Shown: positions 497 through 15,226 of the stretch, in pieces
Numbering within the stretch: position 1 is the stretch's first letter
How the letters are laid out: each line of letters begins with the position of its first letter
From: Micrococcales bacterium
Lineage (GTDB): Bacteria; Actinomycetota; Actinomycetes; Actinomycetales; Dermatophilaceae
DNA length: 15,396 nt
Assembly: GCA_030537915.1 (NCBI GenBank)
Contig: JAUNUZ010000007.1
Coordinates: 1-15,396 of the forward strand
Reading direction: 5' to 3'
Translations under genes and position numbers: made by a program
The notes under the pieces: model-generated
What the model was told of the DNA's origin: nothing
What the model saw: only the letters and a program-made list of their open reading frames with translations
Databases searched by the model: none

Positions 497-2779
497 ATGT
501 CACTCGACAGCGACGTCCAAAAGATTCAAACGGATCCTGACCAGCCCCCGGTGGCCGTCGTCGAGCGTGACGCGCTCTCGGGCAGAGCCAAGATCGTCTT
601 CCTCGTCCTCGCGGTTCTCGCCGCGACCGGCTGGACGATGCTGGCCATCGTCCGCGGCGAACACGTGAGCTCGATGTGGTTCGTGCTCGCGGCGGTGGGT
701 AGCTACTTCCTCGCCCTACGCTTCTACGCTCGGCTCATCGAGCGCAAGATCCTCAAACCGGACGACACGCGCGCGACCCCGGCCGAACTCAACGACAACG
801 GCAAGGACTTCATGCCGACGGACCGCCGGGTCCTCTTCGGTCACCACTTCGCCGCGATCTCCGGGGCCGGGCCGCTCGTCGGGCCGGTCCTGGCCGCGCA
901 GATGGGATACCTGCCCGGCACGCTATGGATCATCTTCGGCGTGATCTTCGCCGGGGCGGTGCAGGACTACATGGTGCTGCACTTCTCCATCCGCCGGAAC
1001 GGGCGCAGCCTCGGACAGATGGCCCGCGAGGAGCTTGGCCCGATCGGTGGCTGGGCAGCCATTGTCGGCGTGCTGACGATCATGATCATCATCATCGCCG
1101 TGCTCGGCGTCGTCATCATCGGCGCCCTGGCGGAGAGCCCGTGGGCGGTCTTCTCCATCTCGATGACGATTCCGATCGCATTGCTCATGGGCATCTACCT
1201 GCGCGTCGTGCGCCCCGGTGCGATCAGTGAGGTCTCGATCATCGGCGTTGCACTGCTCTTCCTGGCGATCATCGGGGGCAAGTGGGTCGCGGACTCGGCC
1301 ACGCTGGCCCCGATCTTCACGCTGAGCAAACCGAGCCTGGCGATCTACCTGTCGCTCTACGGTTTCGCGGCCTCGGTCCTGCCGGTATGGCTGCTACTCG
1401 CCCCGCGGGACTACCTGTCGACGTTCATGAAGGTCGGCACGATCATCGCGCTGGCCCTCGGCATCCTCCTGGTCAACCCCGAGATCAAAATGCCGGCCCT
1501 CACACACTTCGCGCTCGACGGCACGGGCCCCGCCTTCGCAGGACAACTCTTCCCGTTCCTCTTCATCACCATCGCCTGCGGGGCGATCTCGGGCTTCCAC
1601 GCCCTGATCTCCTCGGGCACGACACCCAAGCTCATCGAGAAGGAGACCCAAGCCCGGCTCATCGGCTACGGCGGCATGCTCACCGAGAGCTTCGTCGCGA
1701 TAATGGCCCTCGTCGCCGCGTGCATCCTCGATCAGCACCTCTACTTCGCGATGAACGCCCCCGCCGGCGCCACCGGTGGTGGAGCTGCGATCCCGACCCC
1801 CCAGACGGCCGCCGCCTATACGAACGGGCTCAACCTCGTGAGCCAGGGCGGCCAGCTGCTGCCGCCGATCGACCCGAGTCTGTTCAGCCAGGCCGCCACC
1901 GATATTGGCGAGAAGTCGATCATTTCGCGCACCGGTGGCGCGCCGACGCTGGCCATGGGCATGGCTGAGGTCATGCACCGGATCCCGCTGCTGGGCGACA
2001 AGGCGTTTTGGTACCACTTCGCCGTCATGTTCGAGGCGCTCTTCATCCTCACCACGATCGACGCAGGCACCCGCGTGGCGCGTTTCATGCTCTCCGACAC
2101 CATCGGCAACATCCCCGGCCTGCACAAGTTCAAGGATGCCAGCTGGCGGGTCGGTGCCTGGGTGTGCTCGGCGATCGTCGTGCTCGCCTGGGGGTCGATC
2201 CTCTACATGGGCGTCACAGACCCGCTCGGCGGCATCAACATGCTCTTCCCGCTCTTCGGGATCGCCAACCAGTTGCTGGCCGCCATCGCCCTGTGCGTCG
2301 TCTTCACGATCACCATGAAGAAGGCTCTCTTCACCTGGGCCTGGATACCGGGGATCCCGCTGTTCTTCGTCCTGATCGTGACGATGGCGGCCTCCTTCCA
2401 GAAGATCTTCAGTTCCGACCCCAAGATCGGCTACTGGACCCTGCGCAACGCCGCGATCGCAGCCAAGGAGGCTGGCAAGACCAGCTTCCAAACGGCCAAG
2501 ACGCCCGAGGAGATCGACGTCGTCATCCGCAACACCCTCGTCCAGGGCAGTCTGTCGATCGTCTACGCCGTGCTCGTGCTCATCGTCTTCGCCACGGCGA
2601 TGTGGATGTCGGCCAAGGCATTCCGCGCCGGCGGCATGCCGACCAGCGAGGACGAGCACACGGACTCCCACATCTTCTCGCCGCGCAGCTTCGCGCCCTC
2701 GCACGCGGAGAAGGAGGTCCTGAAGGAGTGGAGTGACGCCGGGCTCGACCCGACCCCCGTCGGCCGCCCGCACGGATGA
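497..2779 (+). CDS. cstA: CstA-family pyruvate/peptide transporter (carbon starvation protein A)
   Basis: A 760-residue polytopic membrane protein, in the normal CstA range (about 690-760). The family hallmark is clear: GHHFAAISGAGPLVGP begins near residue 115 and is followed by AVQDYMVL around residues 154-161. After a soluble N-terminal stretch of about 35 residues there are many hydrophobic segments to about residue 710, then a polar cytoplasmic tail. Members of the family (CstA, BtsT) import pyruvate, and CstA has also been linked to peptide use during carbon starvation in enterobacteria. AGGA at 483-486 precedes the ATG. The stop (2777-2779) is followed within 120 bases by ybdD, the usual partner. 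The 130 bases upstream hold the promoter, but I see no convincing -35/-10 pair; TGTG at 425-428 is at most a half-site for a CRP/GlxR-type regulator. Pyruvate fits the nifJ gene further downstream. Confidence 0.93.
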   Translation: MSLDSDVQKIQTDPDQPPVAVVERDALSGRAKIVFLVLAVLAATGWTMLAIVRGEHVSSMWFVLAAVGSYFLALRFYARLIERKILKPDDTRATPAELNDNGKDFMPTDRRVLFGHHFAAISGAGPLVGPVLAAQMGYLPGTLWIIFGVIFAGAVQDYMVLHFSIRRNGRSLGQMAREELGPIGGWAAIVGVLTIMIIIIAVLGVVIIGALAESPWAVFSISMTIPIALLMGIYLRVVRPGAISEVSIIGVALLFLAIIGGKWVADSATLAPIFTLSKPSLAIYLSLYGFAASVLPVWLLLAPRDYLSTFMKVGTIIALALGILLVNPEIKMPALTHFALDGTGPAFAGQLFPFLFITIACGAISGFHALISSGTTPKLIEKETQARLIGYGGMLTESFVAIMALVAACILDQHLYFAMNAPAGATGGGAAIPTPQTAAAYTNGLNLVSQGGQLLPPIDPSLFSQAATDIGEKSIISRTGGAPTLAMGMAEVMHRIPLLGDKAFWYHFAVMFEALFILTTIDAGTRVARFMLSDTIGNIPGLHKFKDASWRVGAWVCSAIVVLAWGSILYMGVTDPLGGINMLFPLFGIANQLLAAIALCVVFTITMKKALFTWAWIPGIPLFFVLIVTMAASFQKIFSSDPKIGYWTLRNAAIAAKEAGKTSFQTAKTPEEIDVVIRNTLVQGSLSIVYAVLVLIVFATAMWMSAKAFRAGGMPTSEDEHTDSHIFSPRSFAPSHAEKEVLKEWSDAGLDPTPVGRPHG

Positions 2780-2898
2780 TGGACGCGACCTGTCCGACTC
2801 CGCAGGGCAATTCGCTACCCCCGCGGGCGCCGGAGCCCATCGCGGCTTCGGCACCTGAAGGCATTTCCACCGACGCGCCCAGGGCGCATGATGGAGCT

Positions 2899-3102
2899 AT
2901 GACCAAGGTGCTCGCTTCCGCTCGCCGGACCATCGGTGCGCTGCGCTGGTACTGGCGAGGGGTGACCGGCGCGGACGCCTACGAGCGGTACGTCGAGTAC
3001 CTACAGCGGACATGTCCCGACGCGCTCGTACCGAGCCAGAAGCAGTTCTGGCGTGACAAGTACGAGGACATGGAGCGCAACCCCAAGGCGCGCTGCTGCT
3101 GA
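2899..3102 (+). CDS. ybdD: YbdD/YjiX-family small protein, CstA partner
   Basis: A 67-residue protein that matches the YbdD/YjiX family (formerly DUF466): a basic N-terminus, the WYWRGVTGADAYERYVEY stretch, and a conserved ending in ARCC. Members almost always lie directly after a cstA/btsT gene, as here, and are thought to assist the transporter; the mechanism is unknown to me. The start is uncertain. ATG 2899 gives the standard family length, but the nearest GGAG (2893-2896) is only 2 bases away. An in-frame ATG at 2776 overlaps the cstA stop as ATGA and would add 41 Pro/Ala-rich residues that do not look like the family. GTG 2908 has GGAG at a better distance (11 bases) but trims three residues. 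Confidence 0.85.
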   Translation: MTKVLASARRTIGALRWYWRGVTGADAYERYVEYLQRTCPDALVPSQKQFWRDKYEDMERNPKARCC

Positions 3103-3135
3103 CCCCGTCCTGTCCCGCGCGTTTCTCGGCGAAGG

Positions 3136-3172
3136 GCTCCCCCGGAAGGAAGGTGGGGCGGCCGGGGCGAGC
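3136..3172. terminator. Possible bidirectional terminator hairpin between ybdD and dapB
   Basis: GCTCCCCCGG (3136-3145) pairs with CCGGGGCGAGC (3162-3172): ten base pairs with one bulged C (3168) and a 16-base loop. It lies between the convergent stops at 3102 and 3184. There is no T-tract on either side, which is common in high-GC actinobacteria. It could be chance pairing in GC-rich DNA. Confidence 0.4.
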
Positions 3173-3183
3173 TGTGACACTCC

Positions 3184-5436
<2,253 letters not shown>

Positions 5437-5546: not shown

Positions 5547-5822
5547 CTAGTGGTGCATCGGCGGGAGGTCGGGGTCGGCCTCGATGTGGTCGGGCACCAC
5601 GATCGGACGGAGCCTGGCCCACGTCATGAATGCCGCCCCCACGACGAGCAGCCCTAGGCCGCACCACAGGTTGGCGTTGATGCCACCCGTCTTCTCGGAC
5701 GCCCCGTGGCCGAGCATGGACGCGCCGACGAGCAGCACGCCGTAGATGGACAGGAGCAGGCCGATGATGTTGCGGATGTCGAATGCTCCGGCAGTGTGCC
5801 GACCGGATGTGTTCTCAGACAT
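5547..5822 (-). CDS. Small two-helix membrane protein, possible symporter subunit
   Basis: A 91-residue protein I cannot assign to a named family. It has a short polar N-terminus, a hydrophobic segment at about residues 18-39, a polar loop, a second segment at about 51-68, and a cytoplasmic-looking tail ending in two histidines. It starts 12 bases after the stop of the sodium:solute symporter gene and has the best Shine-Dalgarno in the window (GGAGG, 5-base spacer), so both come from one transcript. Small two-helix partners are known for other members of this transporter superfamily (for example DUF485 with ActP, DUF997/YhdT with PanF). A similar accessory role is an inference from position and topology only. 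Confidence 0.75.
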   Translation of the reverse strand: MSENTSGRHTAGAFDIRNIIGLLLSIYGVLLVGASMLGHGASEKTGGINANLWCGLGLLVVGAAFMTWARLRPIVVPDHIEADPDLPPMHH

Positions 5823-5834: not shown

Positions 5835-7574
5835 TCAGAACAGGATGTTGAGGATGAGGACCATGCCCAGCGCGATCAATGCCAGTGGCACGGTGCGCTG
5901 AACAAGGGGCAAGGTCGCCTCGTGCGGATCGACGAGGTCCTCCTTGGGTGTCTCGGAGTAGACGAGACCCTTGAGCTCGGCCGACGTCTTCGGGGTAGTC
6001 GCCAGCGACACGACGATACTCACGACGATATCCACCACGAAAGCCGTCGAAGCGGCGACGAAGGCCAGTCCCTGGCCCGGGAGTGTGAAGATTCCCCCGA
6101 AGGTCGACGCACTCCACAGCGCCACCGCGGAAAGCGTGCCGGCGACGAGGCCGGCCCAGCCGGCCGTCGATGTCATGCGCTTCCAGAACATGCCGAGGAT
6201 GAAGGTCGCGAACAATGGCGCATTGAAGAACCCGAAGAGCGTCTGTAGGTAGTCCATGATGTTGCCGAAGTTGCCCGCGATGAGCGCTGTGAAGATCGCG
6301 ATGACCGTTGCACCGACCGTGGCCAGTCGACCGATCCCCAGGTAGTAGGAATCCTCGCGATCCTTGATGACATACGTCTGCCAGAGGTCGAAGCTGAAGA
6401 CCGTGTTGAAGGCGGAGATGTTGGCAGCCATACCCGCCATGAAGGCGGCGAGCAGACCGGTGATCGCGAGACCGAGCATGCCGTTCGGCAGGACGTCGCG
6501 CATGAGGTAGAGCAGAGCGTCGTTGTACTTCACGCCCGTCCCCGTGGCACCGCCCGGGACGGCCTCGCCACCCTTGAGCCGGAAGATCTCCGAGACCAGG
6601 ACCGCCGCCACCATGCCCGGCACGATGGTGATGAACGGCACGAACATCTTGGGGAACGCACCGATGATCGGGGTCTTGCGGGCCGCGGAGATCGAGTTGC
6701 TCGCCATGGCGCGCTGGACCTCGACGAAGTTCGTCGTCCAGTAGCCGAAGGAAAGGACGAAGCCGAGACCGAAGACGATACCGACGACAGACCAGAACGG
6801 GTTGTCGAAGCCGGAGAGCGCCTGGCCCGGCCACGAGTTCAATTGCTCAGCTGCCGGCGTGACTCCGGGGTTCGAGTCTGCGAAGGCGGTGATCTTGTCC
6901 TCCATGCCGCTCCACCCGCCGACGCGGTGCAGACCGAGGAGCGTCAATGGAAGTAGCGCGGCGACGATGACGAAGAACTGCAGGACTTCGTTATAGATAG
7001 CCGCCGACAGACCGCCCAGAGTGATGTAGGACAACACGATGGCTGCTGCGATGATCAGCGCCAGCCATTGCGGCCAGCCGAGCAGGGCATGGACGATCGA
7101 GGCGAGCAGATAGAGATTGACCCCGGCAATGAGCAACTGCGCCAACGCGAAGCTCAAGGAGTTGACCAGGTGGGCACCCGGGCCGAAACGGCGGAGCATG
7201 AACTCGGGCACCGAACGGACCTTCGAACCGTAATAGAACGGCATCATGACGACGCCGAGGAAGAGCATCGCGGGAATTGCGCCGACCCAGAAGTAGTGGA
7301 CCGTCGGCATGCCGAACTCGGCGCCGGTCGCCGACATGCCCATGATCTCCACGGCGCCGAGGTTGGCCGAGATGAACGCCAGACCCGTCACCCAGGCGGG
7401 CAGGGAGCGGCCGGAGAGGAAGAAGTCGATCGAGCTCGACACCGATCGGCGTGCCATGAGGCCGATGCCCAGCACGAAGGCGAAGTAGATGAGGATGAAC
7501 ACGTAGTCCAGCGGGTTCGCCTGGATCAGGGTGTCTTGCGTCGCGACCAGCGCGGGGAGGGGTAGGGCGTTCAT
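5835..7574 (-). CDS. Sodium:solute symporter (SSS/SLC5 family)
   Basis: A 579-residue membrane protein with about 14 hydrophobic segments. Family marks include FFLSGRSLPAWVTGLAFISANLG cut around residues 51-73, the GGLSAAIYNEVLQFF stretch at about 187-201 (compare GGLxAVxYTDxxQ in SGLTs), and YWTTNFVEVQRAMAS, which recalls the YWxxNQxxxQRxLA motif of sugar symporters. The protein should use a sodium gradient to import a small solute. Substrate cannot be read from sequence; sugar-type, monocarboxylate and other organic solutes are all possible. GGAG lies 5-6 bases before the ATG. It is followed at once by the 91-residue membrane protein, and it diverges from the oxidoreductase operon starting at 7851, which suggests shared control. 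Confidence 0.9.
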   Translation of the reverse strand: MNALPLPALVATQDTLIQANPLDYVFILIYFAFVLGIGLMARRSVSSSIDFFLSGRSLPAWVTGLAFISANLGAVEIMGMSATGAEFGMPTVHYFWVGAIPAMLFLGVVMMPFYYGSKVRSVPEFMLRRFGPGAHLVNSLSFALAQLLIAGVNLYLLASIVHALLGWPQWLALIIAAAIVLSYITLGGLSAAIYNEVLQFFVIVAALLPLTLLGLHRVGGWSGMEDKITAFADSNPGVTPAAEQLNSWPGQALSGFDNPFWSVVGIVFGLGFVLSFGYWTTNFVEVQRAMASNSISAARKTPIIGAFPKMFVPFITIVPGMVAAVLVSEIFRLKGGEAVPGGATGTGVKYNDALLYLMRDVLPNGMLGLAITGLLAAFMAGMAANISAFNTVFSFDLWQTYVIKDREDSYYLGIGRLATVGATVIAIFTALIAGNFGNIMDYLQTLFGFFNAPLFATFILGMFWKRMTSTAGWAGLVAGTLSAVALWSASTFGGIFTLPGQGLAFVAASTAFVVDIVVSIVVSLATTPKTSAELKGLVYSETPKEDLVDPHEATLPLVQRTVPLALIALGMVLILNILF

Positions 7575-7628
7575 AGGTTCTCCGAGACGTCATCGGCCTG
7601 GGCGTGTGGCAGCAGCTGTGCGGACAGG

Positions 7629-7634
7629 AATATA
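7629..7634 (-). promoter_or_regulatory. Candidate -10 element for the symporter operon
   Basis: TATATT on the minus strand is an unusually good -10 hexamer for this GC-rich DNA. It would place the transcription start about 45-50 bases ahead of the symporter ATG at 7574. No matching -35 is clear, so an activator or extended contacts would be needed. Confidence 0.4.
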
Positions 7635-7678
7635 CGCCACCTGAACAGAACCAGCCCGCCAGTGCGGGACCGAGCTCA

Positions 7679-7702
7679 CAAGGTGTCCGAAAGGTGACCT
7701 TG
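7679..7702. promoter_or_regulatory. Operator-like element in the divergent control region
   Basis: The core AAGGTGACCTT (7691-7701) is a perfect inverted repeat around a central G. A second AAGGTG (7680-7685) lies 11 bases upstream, about one helical turn, giving AAGGTGTCC followed by AAGGTGACC as direct repeats. The element is 105 bases from the symporter start and about 150 bases from the oxidoreductase start, upstream of the candidate symporter -10. A GGT-ACC half-site pair is typical of FadR-type GntR regulators, though with a different spacing. No regulator gene is in the window. The rest of 7575-7850 shows no gene. Confidence 0.45.
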
Positions 7703-7850
7703 AGTGCCCCTGAGCCCGGTCGAATCGAACGGGGCGCGAGGCGATCGAAGATTGCGCGGGCCCTAGGTCCCTGCCGTCGGTCGGGTCGACGGCTACGGTT
7801 CGAATCACGGAGAACGCCAATGACAACGGACCGACGAGGACGGGGATCTG

Positions 7851-9509
7851 ATGTCTGCTGCGACGCGAGGTATTGCTGGCGCCGGTCGAGACGACATCAC
7901 GCAATTGCCCGACCTGGCGGGATCGACCGGTCGGGTCGCCCCGGTCCGGGACCGGATGCCGATCTATGTCGATCTGCTGCCGCCGTGCAACGCGGGGTGC
8001 CCTGCCGGGGAGAACATCCAGGAGTGGCTGCGCCTCATCAAGGCCGGAGACGAGCAGGCCGCCTGGCGCCAACTGACCAGCGACAACCCGTTCCCTGCAA
8101 TCCTCGGTCGCGTCTGCTACCACCCGTGCGAGACGGCCTGCAATCGCGCTGGGCTTGACTCAGCCGTGTCGATCCACGGAGTCGAGCGCTACCTGGGCGA
8201 CCGGGCGCTGGAGAGCGGGTGGCGCTTCGAGATGCCCATCCGGCGCTCAGGGCGGCGCGTGCTCATTGTCGGCGCCGGACCCTCCGGGCTATCGGCCGCC
8301 TACCACCTGGCGCGCCTGGGACATGAGGTCGAGATCCGGGACGGCTCACCGCAGCCCGGCGGCATGATGCGCTACGGCATCCCCGAGTACCGCCTCCCCC
8401 GTGACGTGCTCGACGGCGAGATCGGCCGCCTCCTGGACCTGGGCATCCGGATCGTCACTGACCACCCGGTGACGGACCTGCTCGCCGAGCAGACCGAGGG
8501 CGGCTTCGACGCGGTCTTCGTCGCGATCGGGGCGCACCTGTCCAAGCGAGTCGACATCCCCGCACGAGACGCCGGCAAGATCATCGACGCCGTGAGCTTC
8601 CTGCGGGATGTCGCGTCCGGAGGGCGCCCCATCCTCGGCCGACGCGTCGCTGTCTACGGGGGCGGCAACACCGCGATCGACGCGGCCCGCGTGGCCCGCC
8701 GCCTCGGCGTGGACGAGAGCATGGTCGTCTACCGACGGACCCAAGAGCAGATGCCGGCGAACCTCGAGGAGGCCGCGCAGGCCCAGCGCGAGGGCGTCAC
8801 GGTGAACTGGCTGCGCACCATCACCTCCGTCGACGACGCGCTCACCGTCGAGATCATGGAGCTGGACGAGCAGGGCCGACCCCAGGGGACCGGTCGCTTC
8901 GAGACCCTCCAGGCCGACACTGTCATCCTGGCGCTGGGCCAGGAGTCCGACTCCGGTTTCCTGCAGCAGATCCCCGGCCTGCACTTGGACGGCGATGTCG
9001 TGCAGGTCGACAAGACCTCGCTCATGACTGACGTGCCCGGCATCTTCGCCGGCGGCGACGCCGTGCCGAGCGAGCGAACCGTCACGGTCGGCGTCGGACA
9101 CGGCAAGCGTGCCGCGCGCAATATCGACGCCTGGCTCGAGTCGATCCCCTTGCAGGACGAGCCGAAGCATCCCGTCGTCCACCTGGCCGACCTGCACCTA
9201 TGGTACTTCGGCGATCACCACCGGCGCGACCAGCCCGAGCTGCCTGTGCACGCCCGCGTCAGCGACTTCGAGGAGGTCGTCGGCGGCCTGGGTGCCGCCG
9301 GAGCCCGCTACGAGGCGGCGCGCTGCCTCTCCTGCGGCAACTGCTTCGAGTGCGATGGCTGCCTCGGTGCGTGCCCCGAGGACGCGGTCATCAAGCTCGG
9401 GGTGGGACATCGCTACCGGTTCGACTACACCCGCTGCACCGGCTGCGGCTCCTGCTTCGAGCAGTGCCCCGTGCACGCCATAGAGATGATCCCCGAGACT
9501 CCGCGATGA
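7851..9509 (+). CDS. GltD/PreT-like FAD-dependent NAD(P)H oxidoreductase with C-terminal 2[4Fe-4S] ferredoxin domain
   Basis: A 552-residue protein of three parts. Residues about 40-115 are a helical iron-sulphur domain with Cys46, Cys50, Cys89, Cys93 and Cys97, as in glutamate synthase small subunit and dihydropyrimidine dehydrogenase. Residues about 130-455 are a tandem dinucleotide fold: GAGPSG at 141-146 for FAD, GGGNTA at 270-275 plus VVYRRTQEQMPA for NAD(P)H (the RR favours NADPH). The C-terminus has a cysteine-rich set, C492, C495, C498, C501, C504 and C508, then C529, C532, C535 and C539, enough for two [4Fe-4S] clusters. GGGG at 7842-7845 precedes the ATG. The stop overlaps the nifJ start as ATGA. 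No glutamate synthase large subunit is present, so it probably moves electrons between NifJ and NAD(P)H. This role is inferred from domains and coupling. Confidence 0.9.
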   Translation: MSAATRGIAGAGRDDITQLPDLAGSTGRVAPVRDRMPIYVDLLPPCNAGCPAGENIQEWLRLIKAGDEQAAWRQLTSDNPFPAILGRVCYHPCETACNRAGLDSAVSIHGVERYLGDRALESGWRFEMPIRRSGRRVLIVGAGPSGLSAAYHLARLGHEVEIRDGSPQPGGMMRYGIPEYRLPRDVLDGEIGRLLDLGIRIVTDHPVTDLLAEQTEGGFDAVFVAIGAHLSKRVDIPARDAGKIIDAVSFLRDVASGGRPILGRRVAVYGGGNTAIDAARVARRLGVDESMVVYRRTQEQMPANLEEAAQAQREGVTVNWLRTITSVDDALTVEIMELDEQGRPQGTGRFETLQADTVILALGQESDSGFLQQIPGLHLDGDVVQVDKTSLMTDVPGIFAGGDAVPSERTVTVGVGHGKRAARNIDAWLESIPLQDEPKHPVVHLADLHLWYFGDHHRRDQPELPVHARVSDFEEVVGGLGAAGARYEAARCLSCGNCFECDGCLGACPEDAVIKLGVGHRYRFDYTRCTGCGSCFEQCPVHAIEMIPETPR

Positions 9510-12500
9510 GCACCGACACCCACGTCGTCATCGACGGCAACGAGGCGGCCGCGTCGGTCGCCTACCGTCTCTGCGAGCTATGCAGCATCTACCCGATCAC
9601 GCCGTCCTCGACGATGGCAGAGTTGGCCGACGAGTGGTCGGCGCAGCACCGGCCCAACGTGTGGGGGTCCGTGCCAACGGTCGTGGAGATGCAGTCCGAG
9701 GGCGGCGCCGCCGGGGCGATTCACGGAGCGCTCCAGGGCGGGGCGCTGAGCACGACGTTCACGGCCTCCCAAGGCCTGCTCCTCATGATCCCCAACATGT
9801 ACAAGATTGCCGGCGAGCTGACCTCGACCGTCTTTCACGTCGCGGCCCGATCCCTGGCGACGCAGGCGCTGTCGATCTTCGGAGACCACCAGGACGTCAT
9901 GGCGGTCCGGCAGACGGGGTTCGCGCTGCTGGGCAGCGGGTCGGTCCAGGAGGCGCACGACCTGGCCGCGATCTCGCATCTGGCGACCATGCGCTCCCGC
10001 GTACCCTTTTTGCACTTCTTCGATGGCTTCCGCACGAGCCACGAGCTCTCGAGTATCGAGCTGATCACCGATGAGCAGCTGCGCGCCTTCGTGCCGACCC
10101 AGCTTGTGCGCGAGCACCGCGACCGGGCCCTGTCCCCTGCTAATCCCTTCATCCGGGGAACCGCCCACAACCCCGATACCTACTTCCAGGCCAGGGAGAG
10201 CGTCACCCCGTTCTATGCGGCGGTGCCCGGCATCGTGCGTGAGGCGATGGCCTCCTTTGCCGAGCTCACCGGCCGCAGCTACGACCTCGTGGAGTATGTC
10301 GGGGCGCCGGACGCGGACCGCATCATCGTCGTGATGGGCTCGGGTGCCCAGACCGTCCGCGCCGTCGTCGACCTGCTCATCGCGCGCGGCGAGAAAGTCG
10401 GGATGATCGCGATCCGGCTCTACCGGCCCTTCCCGGTCGCCGAGCTGCTGACTGCCATGCCCACCACGGGGGCGCGAGTGGCGGTCCTGGACCGGACCAA
10501 GGAGCCCGGCGCCGGCGGAGAACCCCTCTACCTCGACGTCGTGGCCGCTCTCGCCGAGTCCTTCTCCATGGGCCAGCGCGGCACGATGCCGCGGGTCATC
10601 GGCGGCCGCTACGGGCTCTCCAGCAAGGAGTTCACGCCCGGTATGGCCATGGCGGTTTTCGATGAGCTGGCAAGCGCCATCCCCAAGGCCCGCTTCACCG
10701 TCGGAATCAACGACGACGTGTCCGGCAGCTCACTCACCGTGACCGACGAGCCCGACGTGTTGCCGGCCGGGACCATCTCGGCGGTCTTCTACGGGCTGGG
10801 CAGCGACGGCACCGTCGGGGCCAACAAAAACACGATCAAGATCCTCGGGGACTCCGGCGACCTGCAAGCCCAGGGTTATTTCGTCTACGACAGCAAGAAG
10901 TCCGGCTCCCGCACGGTCTCCCACCTGCGTTTCGGGCCCGAGCCGATCCAGGCGCCCTACCTCATCGAGCGCGCCCACTTCATCGGCTGCCACCACATGT
11001 CGATCGCGCAGCGCGTCGACGTCCTGGAGCGAGCGGAGCCCGGCGCAGTCCTGCTACTCAACACACCGGTGGCCCCGCAAAAAGTCTGGGACACGCTGCC
11101 CGCCACCCTCCAGCTCGGGATCCTCGACAAGGGGATCCGCCTGTGGGTCATCGACGCCGGCCGCGTCGCGCGCGAGGCCGGGCTGGCAGGGCGCACCAAC
11201 ACCGTGCTGCAGACCTGCTTCTTCGCGATCTCTGACGTGCTCCCCGCAGACGAGGCGATCACCAAGGTGAAGGCCGCGATCGCCAAGACCTACGGGCGTC
11301 GCGGCGCCGAAGTCGTGGCCCGCAACGAGACCGCCGTCGACGCCGCGATCGGCGCCCTCCACCAGGTCGTCGTGCCGACCGGGCCGGACGCCCTCTCGGC
11401 CACCGCGGATCTGCTGCCGCCCGTGCCGATGGACGCCCCGGACTTCGTGCAGCGGGTCACCGCGCCGATGCTGGCCGGCCACGGCGACGACCTGCCGGTC
11501 AGCGCGCTGCCCGTCGACGGCACCTATCCCAGCGGCACGAGCGCCTATGAGAAGCGCGAGGTCTCCGACATCGTGGCAGCCTGGGACGCCGACGCCTGCA
11601 TCCAGTGTGGCAACTGCTCGATGGTTTGCCCGCACGCCGTGATCCGCAGTAAATATTATCCCGCGGCTGCCCTGGACGGCGCCCCCGACGGTTTCGAGTC
11701 GGCGCCGCTGGACGCCGTCGGGCTTCCCGACGCCCGCTACACCCTGCAGGTCTACGCCCAGGACTGCACCGGGTGTGGCCTCTGCGTCGAGGCCTGCCCG
11801 GTCAAGCCGCTCGGTCGGCCCAACCGGCGGGCCATCAACCTCGAGCCGTTGGCGCCGCGCCGCGACACCGAGATCGCCAATGTCGCGTTCTTCGAAACGA
11901 TCCCCGTCAACGACCGCAGCCGGGTCGACTTCGGGACGGTGCGCGGCACCCAATACCTGCAACCCCTCTTCGAGTTCTCCGGAGCGTGCAGCGGGTGCGG
12001 TGAGACGCCCTACGTGCGGCTGCTCACCCAACTGTTCGGGGATCGCGCCACCGTCGCGAACGCCACGGGATGCTCCTCGATTTACGGCGGCAACCTGCCG
12101 ACGACGCCGTGGACGACGAACGCCGAGGGGCGTGGACCGGCCTGGAGCAACTCGCTCTTCGAGGACAACGCCGAGTTCGGGCTCGGGCTGCGGATCGCCG
12201 CCGATCTGCAGACCGAGCTGGCGCGTACCCGGCTGCTCGCGCTGCGCGCGCAGATCGGCCCCGAGCTCGTCGATGCGATCCTGTCCGCTCCGCAGCTGCA
12301 CGAGAGCGAGCTGCAAGCCCAGCTACTTCGCCTGGACGAGCTGCGGGCGCGCCTGCCGGGCCTGGACGGACCGGCCGCGCAGGATCTGCGTAGTGTCGCC
12401 GATCACCTCGTGCGACGCAGCGTCTGGATCGTCGGCGGCGACGGCTGGGCCTACGACATCGGCTCCGGCGGCCTGGACCACGTGCTCGCCTCCGGGCGCA

Positions 12501-13096
12501 ACGTCAACGTGCTCGTCCTGGACACCGAGGTTTACTCCAACACCGGCGGACAGTCGAGCAAGTCGACCCCGATGGGCGCGGTCGCGAAATTCGCCGCGGC
12601 CGGGAAGGCCACGGCCAAGAAGGATCTCGCCCTCCAAGCGGCTGCCTACGGGCACGTTTACGTAGCTCGCGTCGCGATGGGAGCAGACCCGCAACAGACC
12701 CTCAAGGCGTTCCGCGAGGCCGAGGCCTACAACGGGCCGAGCCTGGTCATCGCCTACAGCCATTGCATCGCGCACGGCATCGACATGCGCACCGGCCTGG
12801 ATCAGCAGTACCGCGCGGTCAACAGCGGGCACTGGCCGCTCATGCGCTACAACCCGGTGATACGCGACCGCGGCGGCAACCCGTTCTTGCTGGACAGCCC
12901 CCGCCCTAGGCTCAAGCTGCGCGACTACCATTCCCGCGAGCTGCGCTTCCGGATGCTCGCGTCATCGGACCCGGCCGAGGCGGAGCGCCTGCAGGCCCTG
13001 GCGCAAGAGCAGGTAGATCGACGCTGGAACGAGTACGAGGATTTAGCGGCCCGCGGTGCCCGCGACTTTGCCGCCGACGCGCGAAGGGATACTTGA
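9506..13096 (+). CDS. nifJ: Pyruvate:ferredoxin (flavodoxin) oxidoreductase, NifJ type
   Basis: A 1196-residue single-chain enzyme that converts pyruvate and CoA to acetyl-CoA and CO2, passing two electrons to a low-potential carrier; it can run in reverse. All key residues of the Desulfovibrio africanus enzyme are found by eye: T32 in YPITPSS, E65, R115, ferredoxin-domain cysteines 698/701/704/708 and 754/757/760/764, and the proximal-cluster cysteines 828, 831, 856 and 1087, whose spacing (3, 25, 231) equals that of the Desulfovibrio enzyme. The thiamine diphosphate site shows GDGWAYDIG and N1012 in EVYSNTGGQSSKSTP. The extra C-terminal domain of the Desulfovibrio enzyme is missing. The start is the ATG inside ATGA with the preceding stop; a longer frame upstream is an overlap artefact. 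Codon 1180 is TTA. NifJ is uncommon in aerobic actinobacteria. Confidence 0.96.
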   Translation: MSTDTHVVIDGNEAAASVAYRLCELCSIYPITPSSTMAELADEWSAQHRPNVWGSVPTVVEMQSEGGAAGAIHGALQGGALSTTFTASQGLLLMIPNMYKIAGELTSTVFHVAARSLATQALSIFGDHQDVMAVRQTGFALLGSGSVQEAHDLAAISHLATMRSRVPFLHFFDGFRTSHELSSIELITDEQLRAFVPTQLVREHRDRALSPANPFIRGTAHNPDTYFQARESVTPFYAAVPGIVREAMASFAELTGRSYDLVEYVGAPDADRIIVVMGSGAQTVRAVVDLLIARGEKVGMIAIRLYRPFPVAELLTAMPTTGARVAVLDRTKEPGAGGEPLYLDVVAALAESFSMGQRGTMPRVIGGRYGLSSKEFTPGMAMAVFDELASAIPKARFTVGINDDVSGSSLTVTDEPDVLPAGTISAVFYGLGSDGTVGANKNTIKILGDSGDLQAQGYFVYDSKKSGSRTVSHLRFGPEPIQAPYLIERAHFIGCHHMSIAQRVDVLERAEPGAVLLLNTPVAPQKVWDTLPATLQLGILDKGIRLWVIDAGRVAREAGLAGRTNTVLQTCFFAISDVLPADEAITKVKAAIAKTYGRRGAEVVARNETAVDAAIGALHQVVVPTGPDALSATADLLPPVPMDAPDFVQRVTAPMLAGHGDDLPVSALPVDGTYPSGTSAYEKREVSDIVAAWDADACIQCGNCSMVCPHAVIRSKYYPAAALDGAPDGFESAPLDAVGLPDARYTLQVYAQDCTGCGLCVEACPVKPLGRPNRRAINLEPLAPRRDTEIANVAFFETIPVNDRSRVDFGTVRGTQYLQPLFEFSGACSGCGETPYVRLLTQLFGDRATVANATGCSSIYGGNLPTTPWTTNAEGRGPAWSNSLFEDNAEFGLGLRIAADLQTELARTRLLALRAQIGPELVDAILSAPQLHESELQAQLLRLDELRARLPGLDGPAAQDLRSVADHLVRRSVWIVGGDGWAYDIGSGGLDHVLASGRNVNVLVLDTEVYSNTGGQSSKSTPMGAVAKFAAAGKATAKKDLALQAAAYGHVYVARVAMGADPQQTLKAFREAEAYNGPSLVIAYSHCIAHGIDMRTGLDQQYRAVNSGHWPLMRYNPVIRDRGGNPFLLDSPRPRLKLRDYHSRELRFRMLASSDPAEAERLQALAQEQVDRRWNEYEDLAARGARDFAADARRDT

Positions 13097-14163
13097 TGGA
13101 ACTGACCGATACGGCACCGGGCACGAGGACCCCAAGCACGAGGACCCCGCCCAGCCTGACGACCCAGTACCTCGGGTTGTCGCTGCGCAACCCGATCGTG
13201 GCTTCGGCCGGGCCGCTGTCGCAGAGCATCGACGGCGTGACCGCTCTGCAGCGCGCCGGCGTCGGGGCGATCGTGCTCTACTCCCTCTTCGAGGAGCAGC
13301 TACGCCACGAGGCGGCGCGTGATGCCCTCCTCGAAGACGCGCATGCCGACTCCTTCGCCGAGTCGCTGTCGTACTTCCCGACTCCGCCGGCGGGGACCAG
13401 CGGTCTGACCTACCGCTATCTCAACCTCATCGAGCGGGCTGTCAGCGCGGTCGACGTGCCGATCATCGCGAGCCTCAACGGCTCGACGAGCGGCGGCTGG
13501 ACCAACTTCGCGCGCCAGATGCAGGACGCCGGTGCCTACGCCATCGAGCTCAACATCTATCTCGTGCCCGGTGACGTACAGATGAGCGGGCGGGAGGTCG
13601 AGGATAGGCACGTCGAGATCCTGCAGCGGGTCAAACAGGCCGTGACGATCCCCGTCGCGGTGAAGCTCTCGCCCTACCTGTCCTCCATCGGCGAGATGGC
13701 CCGCCGGCTCGACGACGCCCATGCGGACGGGCTCGTGCTCTTCAACCGCTTCGTGCAGCCGGAAGTCGACATCGAGAGCGTGACCGTCGCCTCGGGAGTG
13801 CAGCTGTCGGTGCCCTTCGAGGGACGCCTGCCCCGGACCTGGATCGCGGCCCTGCGCGGCAGAGTCTCCACGAGCTTGGCCGGCACCTCCGGCGTGGAGA
13901 CCTGGGAGGACGTCGCGCGCTACCTACTCGCGGGCGCGGATGTCGCGATGACGACGTCATCCTTGCTGCGGCACGGGCCGGAGCACGCCCGCACGCTGCT
14001 GGACGGGCTCTCGACCTGGCTGGAGCGCAAGGGATTCGCGGACGTAGCTGCCGCCCGCGGCCTGCTCGCAGTGCCCGCCGATGCCGATGCGACCGCCTAC
14101 GAGCGCGCCGGGTATGTGTCCGCGCTGGAGAAGGCCAAGCAGGTCTACGGCAATCTCGTCTGA
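13096..14163 (+). CDS. Dihydroorotate dehydrogenase-like FMN oxidoreductase, active-site variant
   Basis: A 355-residue TIM-barrel flavoprotein resembling class 1 dihydroorotate dehydrogenase and the FMN part of dihydropyrimidine dehydrogenase. Landmarks: LSLRNPIVASAGP at about 27-39, SLNGSTSGGW at 126-135, ELNIY at 151-155, K190 in VKLSPY, N217 in LFNRF, AGTSGVE at 262-268 and GADVAMTTSSLL near the end, the phosphate-binding region. The active-site residues differ: the Lys of VVTK is Tyr62, and the catalytic Cys motif SCPN is replaced by YLVP (155-158). It therefore should not make orotate. The ATG overlaps the nifJ stop (TGATG), with AAGGGA at 13084-13089. A 15-bp tandem duplication encodes TRTPS/TRTPP in the variable N-terminus. 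Substrate is unknown. Confidence 0.85.
   Translation: MELTDTAPGTRTPSTRTPPSLTTQYLGLSLRNPIVASAGPLSQSIDGVTALQRAGVGAIVLYSLFEEQLRHEAARDALLEDAHADSFAESLSYFPTPPAGTSGLTYRYLNLIERAVSAVDVPIIASLNGSTSGGWTNFARQMQDAGAYAIELNIYLVPGDVQMSGREVEDRHVEILQRVKQAVTIPVAVKLSPYLSSIGEMARRLDDAHADGLVLFNRFVQPEVDIESVTVASGVQLSVPFEGRLPRTWIAALRGRVSTSLAGTSGVETWEDVARYLLAGADVAMTTSSLLRHGPEHARTLLDGLSTWLERKGFADVAAARGLLAVPADADATAYERAGYVSALEKAKQVYGNLV
13121..13148 (+). repeat. Two-copy 15-bp tandem repeat in the N-terminal linker of the DHODH-like gene
   Basis: GCACGAGGACCCC occurs at 13121-13133 and again at 13136-13148, separated by AA. The 15-base period keeps the frame and repeats the residues TRTP. It lies before the conserved barrel begins, so copy number could vary without loss of the core fold. 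Confidence 0.8.
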
Positions 14164-14227
14164 GCCCGGCCGCGACATGCTCGGGTAGGGCGGGCTGAGC
14201 GCCCCGCACATCGACAGCGCGACCGGC

Positions 14228-15226
14228 CTACGCCAGCGGGCGCAGCTCGGCGTCCAGGAGCAGGGCCGAGACCTCGACCGTGCTGCCGGTCATGCGCACG
14301 CCGGCCAGCACCTCGCGCCAGGCGTTCATCGCACTCCACACCGAGGCCGGCACGAGTTTGGGCGCGAGCAGATACATGTCGCCACCGCCTTTTCCTTCGA
14401 TCCGGTCGGCGACGGGCCGCGGCCCGGGGCCGTCGATATGGTGGTATGTGTAGTCGAATCCGTCCATGGCGGCGTCCAATTCGCCTACGCACCGGCCATG
14501 CAGAACCTCGACAAGGATCCAGGGTCGGTACTCGGTGATGGTGCGCCGCGCGCCGCGTAGCACGGCTGGTTCGGTCGTCTCGGTGTCGATCTTCAGGAGG
14601 GTCGGCGCGATCCTCTTGGCTGCGCAGAAGGCATCGACCGTGGTGGTCGGCACGTCGATCCGCCGCTCGGACTCCCGGAAGTCGGGGTTGAGCGAGTTCG
14701 ACGCGTCCGAGGTGTTGGACAGGTAGAGCGTCAGAGTGCCGACCTCGGCCCCGACGGCCGTCTGCTCGACGCGCAGCGGCAGACGGCTCACCCTGGCCGA
14801 GCGCCGGGCCGCGGCGGCGATCCGGGGCGTGGGCTCGAAGGAGTAGACGGGTCCACGCCCGAGCGCGCACCCCAGCAGGCCGTAGAGCCCGACGTTCGCG
14901 CCGATGTCGAGCACCGCTCCCCCACGAGTGTGCTCGAGGAGCGCGAGGTAGAGGTCGAGCGCGTAGGGCTCGTACTTGCCCAGGCCGTACTTCGCGAGCG
15001 CCTTAGGGATGAAGAGCTCGTCCGGCGCCTCGATGGCAAAGGGCCGCAGCGCCGGGCGGAACCCGGCCGGGGCCCGCTGCTCGAACGACAGATGGCGCAG
15101 CTCGACCTTTCGCCCCAGCTGCTGCTCAACCAGCGGTCGAACCCTGCGACGCACCGACGACGGCACCCTCTGATGAAGGGACCGTCCCGCACGGACGGCA
15201 GCGTCGCGAATCAGCGCGGGGTTCAT
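14228..15226 (-). CDS. FkbM-family SAM-dependent methyltransferase
   Basis: A 332-residue protein with the FkbM methyltransferase domain (Methyltransf_21) at about residues 100-290. Visible motifs: the SAM-binding VLDIGANVGLYG at 105-116, SFEPTP at 129-134, and LKIDTETTEPAVLRGA at 211-226. Family members O-methylate sugars, lipids or natural products; the target here is unknown and no glycan or secondary-metabolite genes are nearby. I chose ATG 15226: TAGCGT ends 7 bases ahead of it, pointing to a leaderless mRNA. A GTG at 15235 and a GTG or ATG further upstream (frame open to 15307) are alternatives but lack a Shine-Dalgarno. It converges on the oxidoreductase operon, and the 64 bases between them show only a weak 5-bp stem. 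Confidence 0.85.
   Translation of the reverse strand: MNPALIRDAAVRAGRSLHQRVPSSVRRRVRPLVEQQLGRKVELRHLSFEQRAPAGFRPALRPFAIEAPDELFIPKALAKYGLGKYEPYALDLYLALLEHTRGGAVLDIGANVGLYGLLGCALGRGPVYSFEPTPRIAAAARRSARVSRLPLRVEQTAVGAEVGTLTLYLSNTSDASNSLNPDFRESERRIDVPTTTVDAFCAAKRIAPTLLKIDTETTEPAVLRGARRTITEYRPWILVEVLHGRCVGELDAAMDGFDYTYHHIDGPGPRPVADRIEGKGGGDMYLLAPKLVPASVWSAMNAWREVLAGVRMTGSTVEVSALLLDAELRPLA

Follow-up and report, generated by a model that had tools for sequence, protein, structure and literature searches.

A conserved gltD-nifJ-dhod gene set points to a pyruvate:ferredoxin oxidoreductase variant with a likely built-in NAD(P) module

The stretch of DNA analysed here (15,396 nucleotides, henceforth the window) is contig JAUNUZ010000007.1 of a Micrococcales bacterium (assembly GCA_030537915.1). 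It carries three overlapping genes that encode a GltD-like iron-sulfur flavoprotein (gltD), the pyruvate:ferredoxin oxidoreductase (PFOR) NifJ, and a protein resembling dihydroorotate dehydrogenase (DHODH; gene dhod). As a variant of PFOR the trio is real, conserved and so far uncharacterised, though a forerunner has been published. Judging from the sequences, gltD and nifJ rather probably encode a pyruvate:NADP+ oxidoreductase made up of separate subunits, and in the best reading the GltD-like subunit would also take the place of PorD. For the DHODH-like protein we tentatively propose the role of a separate accessory of NifJ, in which the FMN barrel would serve as a second electron partner.

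All three genes are on the plus strand. gltD (7851..9509) encodes 552 amino acids, nifJ (9506..13096) 1196 and dhod (13096..14163), read from its ATG, 355. The overlaps of four bases and one base given in a preliminary description of the window were confirmed: the sequence ATGA at 9506..9509 contains both the gltD stop and the nifJ start, and in the TGATG junction the nifJ stop and the dhod start share the single base 13096. The list of open reading frames also has an in-frame TTG at 13093 for dhod.

NifJ shows the Pfam domains POR_N, PFOR_II, POR, EKR, Fer4 and TPP_enzyme_C. With 1688 bits against TIGR02176 (cut-off 911) over residues 8–1181 it is a full-length member of this family, and the PDB entries 6cin and 1b0p match it over residues 8 to 1181–1186. 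Two CxxCxxCxxxCP motifs (698–708 and 754–764) plus Cys 828, 831, 856 and 1087 form a pattern that fits three [4Fe-4S] clusters, as in the Desulfovibrio PFOR.

The GltD-like protein is composed of the Pfam domains Fer4_20, Pyr_redox_2 and Fer4 and belongs to the PRK12771 family (755 bits, cut-off 516). Its closest solved folds are the GltD-like subunits of NfnABC and StnABC (9bov, 9n5v, 8oh5). In an alignment of the window protein with those of 36 of the 39 three-gene loci described below (L052, L060 and L084 being left out; n = 37), 15 cysteines and Glu112 are invariant (37/37). Cys46, 50, 89, 93 and 97 and Glu112 lie in an N-terminal cluster region (residues 44–113; 7980..8189) and align with the NfnB ligands C47, C51, C90, C96, C100 and E117. 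Cys492 and Cys495 lie in a permuted Nfn N-terminal segment ending RCLSC (residues 468–495; 9252..9335), which matches the first domain of 4ylf and 5jca with i-Evalues of 0.032 and 1.9, weak when taken alone. In a permutation test none of 500 shuffles reached the score of the segment in any of the 37 rows, and it was the best segment in 74 of 74 comparisons. All eight NfnB cluster ligands (three Cys and a Glu at the proximal cluster, four Cys at the distal one) have aligned counterparts, two of them permuted C-terminally. The protein ends in a dicluster ferredoxin with Cys 498/501/504/508 and 529/532/535/539 (9342..9467), whose motifs are invariant in the alignment. The 15 cysteines and the glutamate agree with a total of four [4Fe-4S] clusters arranged as in NfnB but permuted, in which Cys46, 97, 492 and 495 would hold the distal and Cys50, 89, 93 and Glu112 the proximal cluster. 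The two-cluster ferredoxin previously attributed to this protein is thus present, but it is not the whole count since 15 invariant cysteines mean more clusters.

A YRR motif (residues 294–296; 8730..8738) is found in 37/37 GltD-like sequences at the expected NADP 2'-phosphate site. Its meaning is taken from the available text of PMC7596348 and, by analogy with NfnB and DsrL-2, it marks a nucleotide site of the NADP type. These sequence signs favour NADP(H) as the cofactor.

The DHODH-like protein, a TIM-barrel with the Pfam domain DHO_dh and probably an FMN protein, is a member of PRK07565 (429 bits, cut-off 303); the top fold match of its model is dihydropyrimidine dehydrogenase. Membership in the quinone-linked class 2 of DHODH was rejected with at most 33 bits, as compared with 92 and 84 bits for class 1 models. 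The window protein was aligned with those of 63 of the 80 loci described below (n = 64). Cys130 of 1jub falls in an alignment gap of the family, and the counterpart of the 1ep1 Cys is column 156. The catalytic residue of DHODH, which follows the ELN motif in a loop and is Cys in class 1 and Ser in class 2, was not found, columns 153–158 showing Cys in 0/64 and Ser in 5/64 sequences, the window not among them. The window protein is devoid of cysteines altogether; 22/64 sequences have none and 24/64 have one. Conversely, N153, K190, N217, E89 and R218 are invariant in 64/64. The first three correspond in the alignment to N127 and K164 of 1jub and to the MINT-motif Asn of 1ep1, which we take to be flavin contacts and residues with ligand roles. 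This suggests that the flavin site and a ligand pocket have been kept. A NifJ-DHODH fusion (P0090) was set aside as evidence for contact, its NifJ part having scrambled stretches that resemble frameshifts.

Named genomes were scanned for dhod, yielding at least 586 confirmed DHODH-like stretches of which the best 80 were kept as loci. nifJ lies directly upstream of dhod in 79 of these, the exception (L070) starting inside dhod. The complete order gltD-nifJ-dhod is found in 39 loci and nifJ-dhod without gltD in 23, in which at least 1.8 kb upstream of nifJ are present and no gltD was seen; 18 loci are too short to class. Three-gene loci occur in Actinomycetota, Alpha- and Gammaproteobacteria (Methylococcaceae, Competibacteraceae), Nitrospirota, Acidobacteriota, Verrucomicrobiota and Myxococcota, among other places in the Propionibacteriaceae (L051, L052, L054, L057, L065). 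As it is found again across phyla the order is not due to chance, and a restriction to this one genome, which would have undermined the initial proposal, is ruled out. The four-base gltD-nifJ overlap recurs in 12 of the 39 three-gene loci, all from Actinomycetota, with mechanically chosen starts. The nearest named relatives of the window proteins include Piscicoccus, Gephyromycinifex, Kineosphaera and Austwickia. Among 16 loci of window relatives (L035 and L049 represent the same place) ten have all three genes, five nifJ-dhod, and one (L048) dhod alone. In the 22 of 23 nifJ-dhod genomes that were compared, the best PRK12771 match reached 575 bits, as against 737–773 in five three-gene genomes.

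Two of the loci deserve a separate mention. The trio on a contig labelled Phycisphaerales (L078) has a DHODH that branches inside the Competibacteraceae and may be mis-binned. L099 (1853–7797) has nifJ-dhod followed by a second nifJ piece and a second dhod, by tandem duplication or an assembly join.

gltD was also followed independently of dhod. In a sample of 249 Pseudomonadota genomes, PRK12771 matches at E 1e-195 or better were present in 64, at 71 places, of which 42 were examined (the 30 best-scoring loci and 12 chosen ones). The 35 places at which identity to the window protein is at least 48% all have a pyruvate oxidoreductase next to them, nifJ in 28 cases and por in seven; the seven at 37% identity or less adjoin neither. 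The latter (32–37%; the second copy of L171, and L172, L176, L177, L178, L179, L183) possibly represent DsrL or another subfamily. Twenty of 27 gltD-nifJ loci were extended past nifJ, and in the 19 reaching at least 2.1 kb beyond it (L185 is cut) dhod is absent in every case; L180 likewise lacks it with only 1 kb of sequence to spare. One of the 27 is in a three-gene genome (G274; L077). For 20 genomes in which gltD-nifJ has no dhod next to it, a search at 1e-30 gave no dhod match in 12, and in all of the other eight dhod is located behind a second nifJ. In the Actinomycetota sample, the four GltD matches above 700 bits adjoin either nifJ (the window, G033) or porC-porA-porB (L129, L130). The L129 and L130 genomes show no TIGR02176 match, their por genes being recognised by profile (L129) or by 60–71% similarity to the L129 proteins (L130).

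The linkage of dhod with nifJ was assessed in two whole-genome samples. Among 198 Actinomycetota genomes, 41 contain 43 dhod matches, 32 of which adjoin nifJ, located upstream in 26 and in reversed order in six. The reversed cases, dhod-nifJ on the same strand, are six Actinomycetota of one family (f26; G075, G103, G126, G169, G201, G212). Among 99 Bacteroidota genomes, 38 contain 39 dhod matches, 31 of them adjoining nifJ, and all 38 have nifJ. The co-occurrence of dhod and nifJ is significant by Fisher tests that ignore kinship (2e-14 for Bacteroidota and 7e-20 for Actinomycetota). In Actinomycetota, nifJ occurs without dhod in 23 of 60 nifJ genomes. In four Bacteroidota (G294, G279, G284, G289) a full nifJ is accompanied by additional, partial reading frames that resemble NifJ.

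The GltD-like and DHODH-like proteins are independent partners of pyruvate oxidoreductase, because gltD-nifJ occurs without dhod, nifJ-dhod without gltD, and gltD also after porC-porA-porB. The window NifJ carries both accessory genes while other bacteria have either one alone. An obligate electron path through all three proteins, as envisaged in the preliminary description, is not supported, given the 19/19 testable gltD-nifJ loci lacking dhod and the 23/80 nifJ-dhod loci lacking gltD.

Judging from the NifJ and DHODH trees and the correlated distances, the three-gene set seems to have spread between phyla mostly as one unit. The trees were calculated without loci having broken reading frames and without the 18 short, unclassed loci. 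A single change suffices in the NifJ tree (FastTree), where the three-gene forms part from the two-gene forms at one branch. Pairwise distances among 35 sequences correlate with 0.94 for GltD-NifJ, 0.88 for NifJ-DHODH and 0.89 for GltD-DHODH.

In its make-up the GltD-like protein resembles an NAD(P) reductase to which a PorD subunit has been joined; its ferredoxin would have diverged in the nifJ branch, since this domain lies above the PorD_KorD (TIGR02179) cut-off beside por and below it beside nifJ. The cut-off of 60.05 is exceeded in all three por-linked ferredoxin ends scanned (L129 61.7, L173 63.9, L184 60.7). A built-in NAD(P) module, already suspected from the window alone, is likely given a GltD-ferredoxin protein beside both NifJ and PorCAB, the PorD-like ferredoxin and the YRR motif. 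As deduced from family membership, NifJ would split pyruvate with CoA and thiamine diphosphate. Electrons would then leave the three [4Fe-4S] clusters of NifJ for the PorD-like ferredoxin domain of the GltD-like subunit, and pass two more GltD clusters and FAD to reduce NADP+. With the ferredoxin fused to the GltD-like subunit, a free ferredoxin would not be required. The reverse direction, NADPH-driven pyruvate synthesis, which had also been considered, is unlikely on known potentials unless coupled.

Several observations weigh against this interpretation. The ferredoxin domain of the window protein scores only 44 bits against PorD_KorD (cut-off 60), and PorD_KorD is not listed at 1e-12 for the nifJ-linked L180. 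The C-terminal ferredoxin in the GltD model is poorly predicted (pLDDT below 50), so that shared cluster ligation rests on sequence. Regarding the common history of the genes, the branch uniting the three-gene NifJ proteins has a support of only 75, and the DHODH tree needs three changes between three-gene and two-gene forms. L048 has no nifJ in about 5.8 kb upstream of dhod. Furthermore, 8/39 dhod matches in Bacteroidota and 11/43 in Actinomycetota are not linked to nifJ, although seven of these 11 have a nifJ piece or a short end. Eight of the 11 were fetched: a nifJ piece lies upstream in L131, L132, L135, L137 and L138, L133 and L136 end too near dhod to tell, and L134 (distant, 24% identical) is unlinked. 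In L132, all that remains of nifJ beside dhod are two short pieces, which lie in different frames and do not include the C-terminal part, representing a broken gene or an assembly fault. Finally, NifJ proteins linked to gltD and those without it differ at just five positions (90% in both groups; 38 versus 22 sequences), and therefore a dedicated docking surface is not evident.

With respect to the DHODH-like protein, a function in the assembly, repair or protection of NifJ, and not as a redox partner, appears somewhat unlikely. It would be in accordance with the loss of the catalytic Cys, with the scarcity of cysteines in the family, which means that no cluster leads to its flavin, and with the frequent absence of dhod from Actinomycetota possessing nifJ. 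The five residues invariant in 64/64 sequences speak against it, suggesting as they do a flavin site and ligand pocket that have been kept.

The gene pair gltD-nifJ might also reflect co-expression only: NifJ would reduce a separate ferredoxin or flavodoxin, with the GltD-like protein acting as a stand-alone ferredoxin:NADP+ reductase made in step with it. This is unlikely. It would agree with NifJ being an ordinary full-length PFOR with so few positions specific to the gltD-linked group, but the reductase already has a ferredoxin fused to it, PorD-like after porCAB, and the pairing has been kept with two different oxidoreductase subunit layouts.

A third proposal comes from the forerunner of this work. 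The cluster is not new to print, although the preliminary description knew of no biochemical account of it, because in Propionibacterium the same three annotations have been treated and a complex proposed (PMC7650540, 2020). According to the available text of that paper, a glutamate synthase small chain-like gene with an extra ferredoxin site and a DHODH-like gene flank nifJ1; the genes are co-transcribed and co-regulated, and a knockout of PFOR (nifJ) cripples growth. From co-transcription, equal regulation and the growth defect, its section 3.4.3 proposes a confurcating complex with quinol. Applied to the window, the FAD of GltD would join the electrons from pyruvate with those of higher potential from the DHODH-FMN, supplied by quinol or another donor, and pass them to NAD(P)+. 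We regard this as quite improbable. The glutamate ligand of the proximal cluster is shared with bifurcating NfnB, Lys being found in StnC where bifurcation has been lost, but an NfnA-like [2Fe-2S]/FAD partner was not found among the nine window proteins to which the scan was limited. Moreover, neither flavin site depends on the other, as seen from the loci having only one of the accessory genes, and the greater proximity of the DHODH-like protein to class 1 contradicts the quinone argument of PMC7650540. More improbable still is the far-reaching version in which a single complex of all three proteins would couple energy by means of flavins. In it, the FAD of GltD would confurcate electrons arriving from pyruvate through NifJ and from a substrate of the DHODH-FMN to give two NADPH per pyruvate plus donor, and the FMN barrel would represent a new catalytic family, not concerned with pyrimidines, that arose as a PFOR partner.

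The likeness between the window and the Propionibacterium cluster is by annotation, and the available text of PMC7650540 contains neither an enzyme assay nor a treatment of the gene order in other phyla. Going beyond that text are the independence of the two flanking genes in their association with PFOR, the closeness of the DHODH-like protein to class 1, and the occurrence of GltD with PorCAB. A literature search by names for the exact nifJ-gltD-dhod trio, carried out in a limited collection, found no description, and the available parts of PMC8231444, PMC8360058 and PMC10434189 do not describe it. PMC8360058 deals, in its available part, with a FixABCX-type ferredoxin plus quinol route in propionic acid bacteria, reportedly reconstituted by proteomics.

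Related enzymes can be compared with a pyruvate:NADP+ oxidoreductase of separate subunits, the reading we prefer. The GltD-like subunits of NfnABC and StnABC differ in being far longer (StnC carries a fused NuoG-like domain and has a bifurcating flavoprotein module as its partner) and in having no NifJ; the GltD-like unit of StnC binds NADPH. Dihydropyrimidine dehydrogenase/PreTA combines a GltD-like FAD/NADPH unit, an FMN barrel and ferredoxin clusters in one system. The window set departs from it by carrying the ferredoxin on its GltD protein, by an FMN protein devoid of the catalytic Cys, and by the addition of NifJ. The Euglena-type pyruvate:NADP+ oxidoreductase, a PFOR fused to a cytochrome P450 reductase domain, carries out the same overall reaction as proposed here, but the window NifJ lacks such a domain. 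The 2-oxoglutarate:NADP+ oxidoreductase of Azoarcus is heteromeric and without a DHODH-like gene, and it differs in its substrate. As a 2-oxoacid oxidoreductase with a GltD/Nfn-type subunit, placed among GltD/Nfn relatives in the available text of PMC10134865, it provides a precedent for our reading.

DsrL shares an Nfn-like body and a C-terminal two-cluster ferredoxin, four [4Fe-4S] clusters in all. It differs in its partner, the sulfite reductase DsrAB, in a linker of about 100 amino acids and in the N-terminal position of the distal-cluster segment. According to the available text of PMC7596348, DsrL reduces NAD(P)+ from reduced methyl viologen, four clusters were measured, and YRR is tied to NADP preference. 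DsrL-like genes linked to pyruvate/ketoisovalerate oxidoreductases are mentioned in that text only for exclusion, and the window gene, being directly linked to nifJ, falls outside DsrL as delimited there.

As for the surroundings of the trio, the promoter scan gave no sigma-70-like site at 7400–14400, an Rfam scan at gathering thresholds returned no match, and no tRNA was found. Upstream on the minus strand (5550–5822 and 5838–7574) there is an SSF-family symporter gene followed by one for a 91-amino acid protein without Pfam match, both kept in L034 (86% and 64%). The region 497–5433 encodes a CstA-like carbon starvation protein, a 108-amino acid open reading frame, DapB and a dicarboxylate symporter. 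In the close relatives L033, L034 and L035 the trio likewise has some of these genes nearby, so that local synteny is wider than the trio. The window (contig C63) belongs to an assembly (G000) of 2.74 Mb in 525 contigs, 83% complete. NifJ is probably not the sole route of pyruvate oxidation in this genome, because it also contains a pyruvate dehydrogenase E1 gene in pieces (C152, C355; one piece over cut-off) and, at G000:C429:6–389, the terminal part of a gene for a 2-oxoacid:acceptor oxidoreductase alpha subunit.

In public records the DHODH-like family goes under the name of a pyrimidine enzyme, although the catalytic residue is missing from it and its gene is usually found 3' of nifJ. PFOR, in turn, is usually drawn as a ferredoxin enzyme. 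If NADP+ is reduced directly in the Actinomycetota, methanotrophs and Competibacter-type bacteria concerned, pyruvate oxidation would give NADPH and not reduced ferredoxin, which would alter flux and energy models of these organisms.

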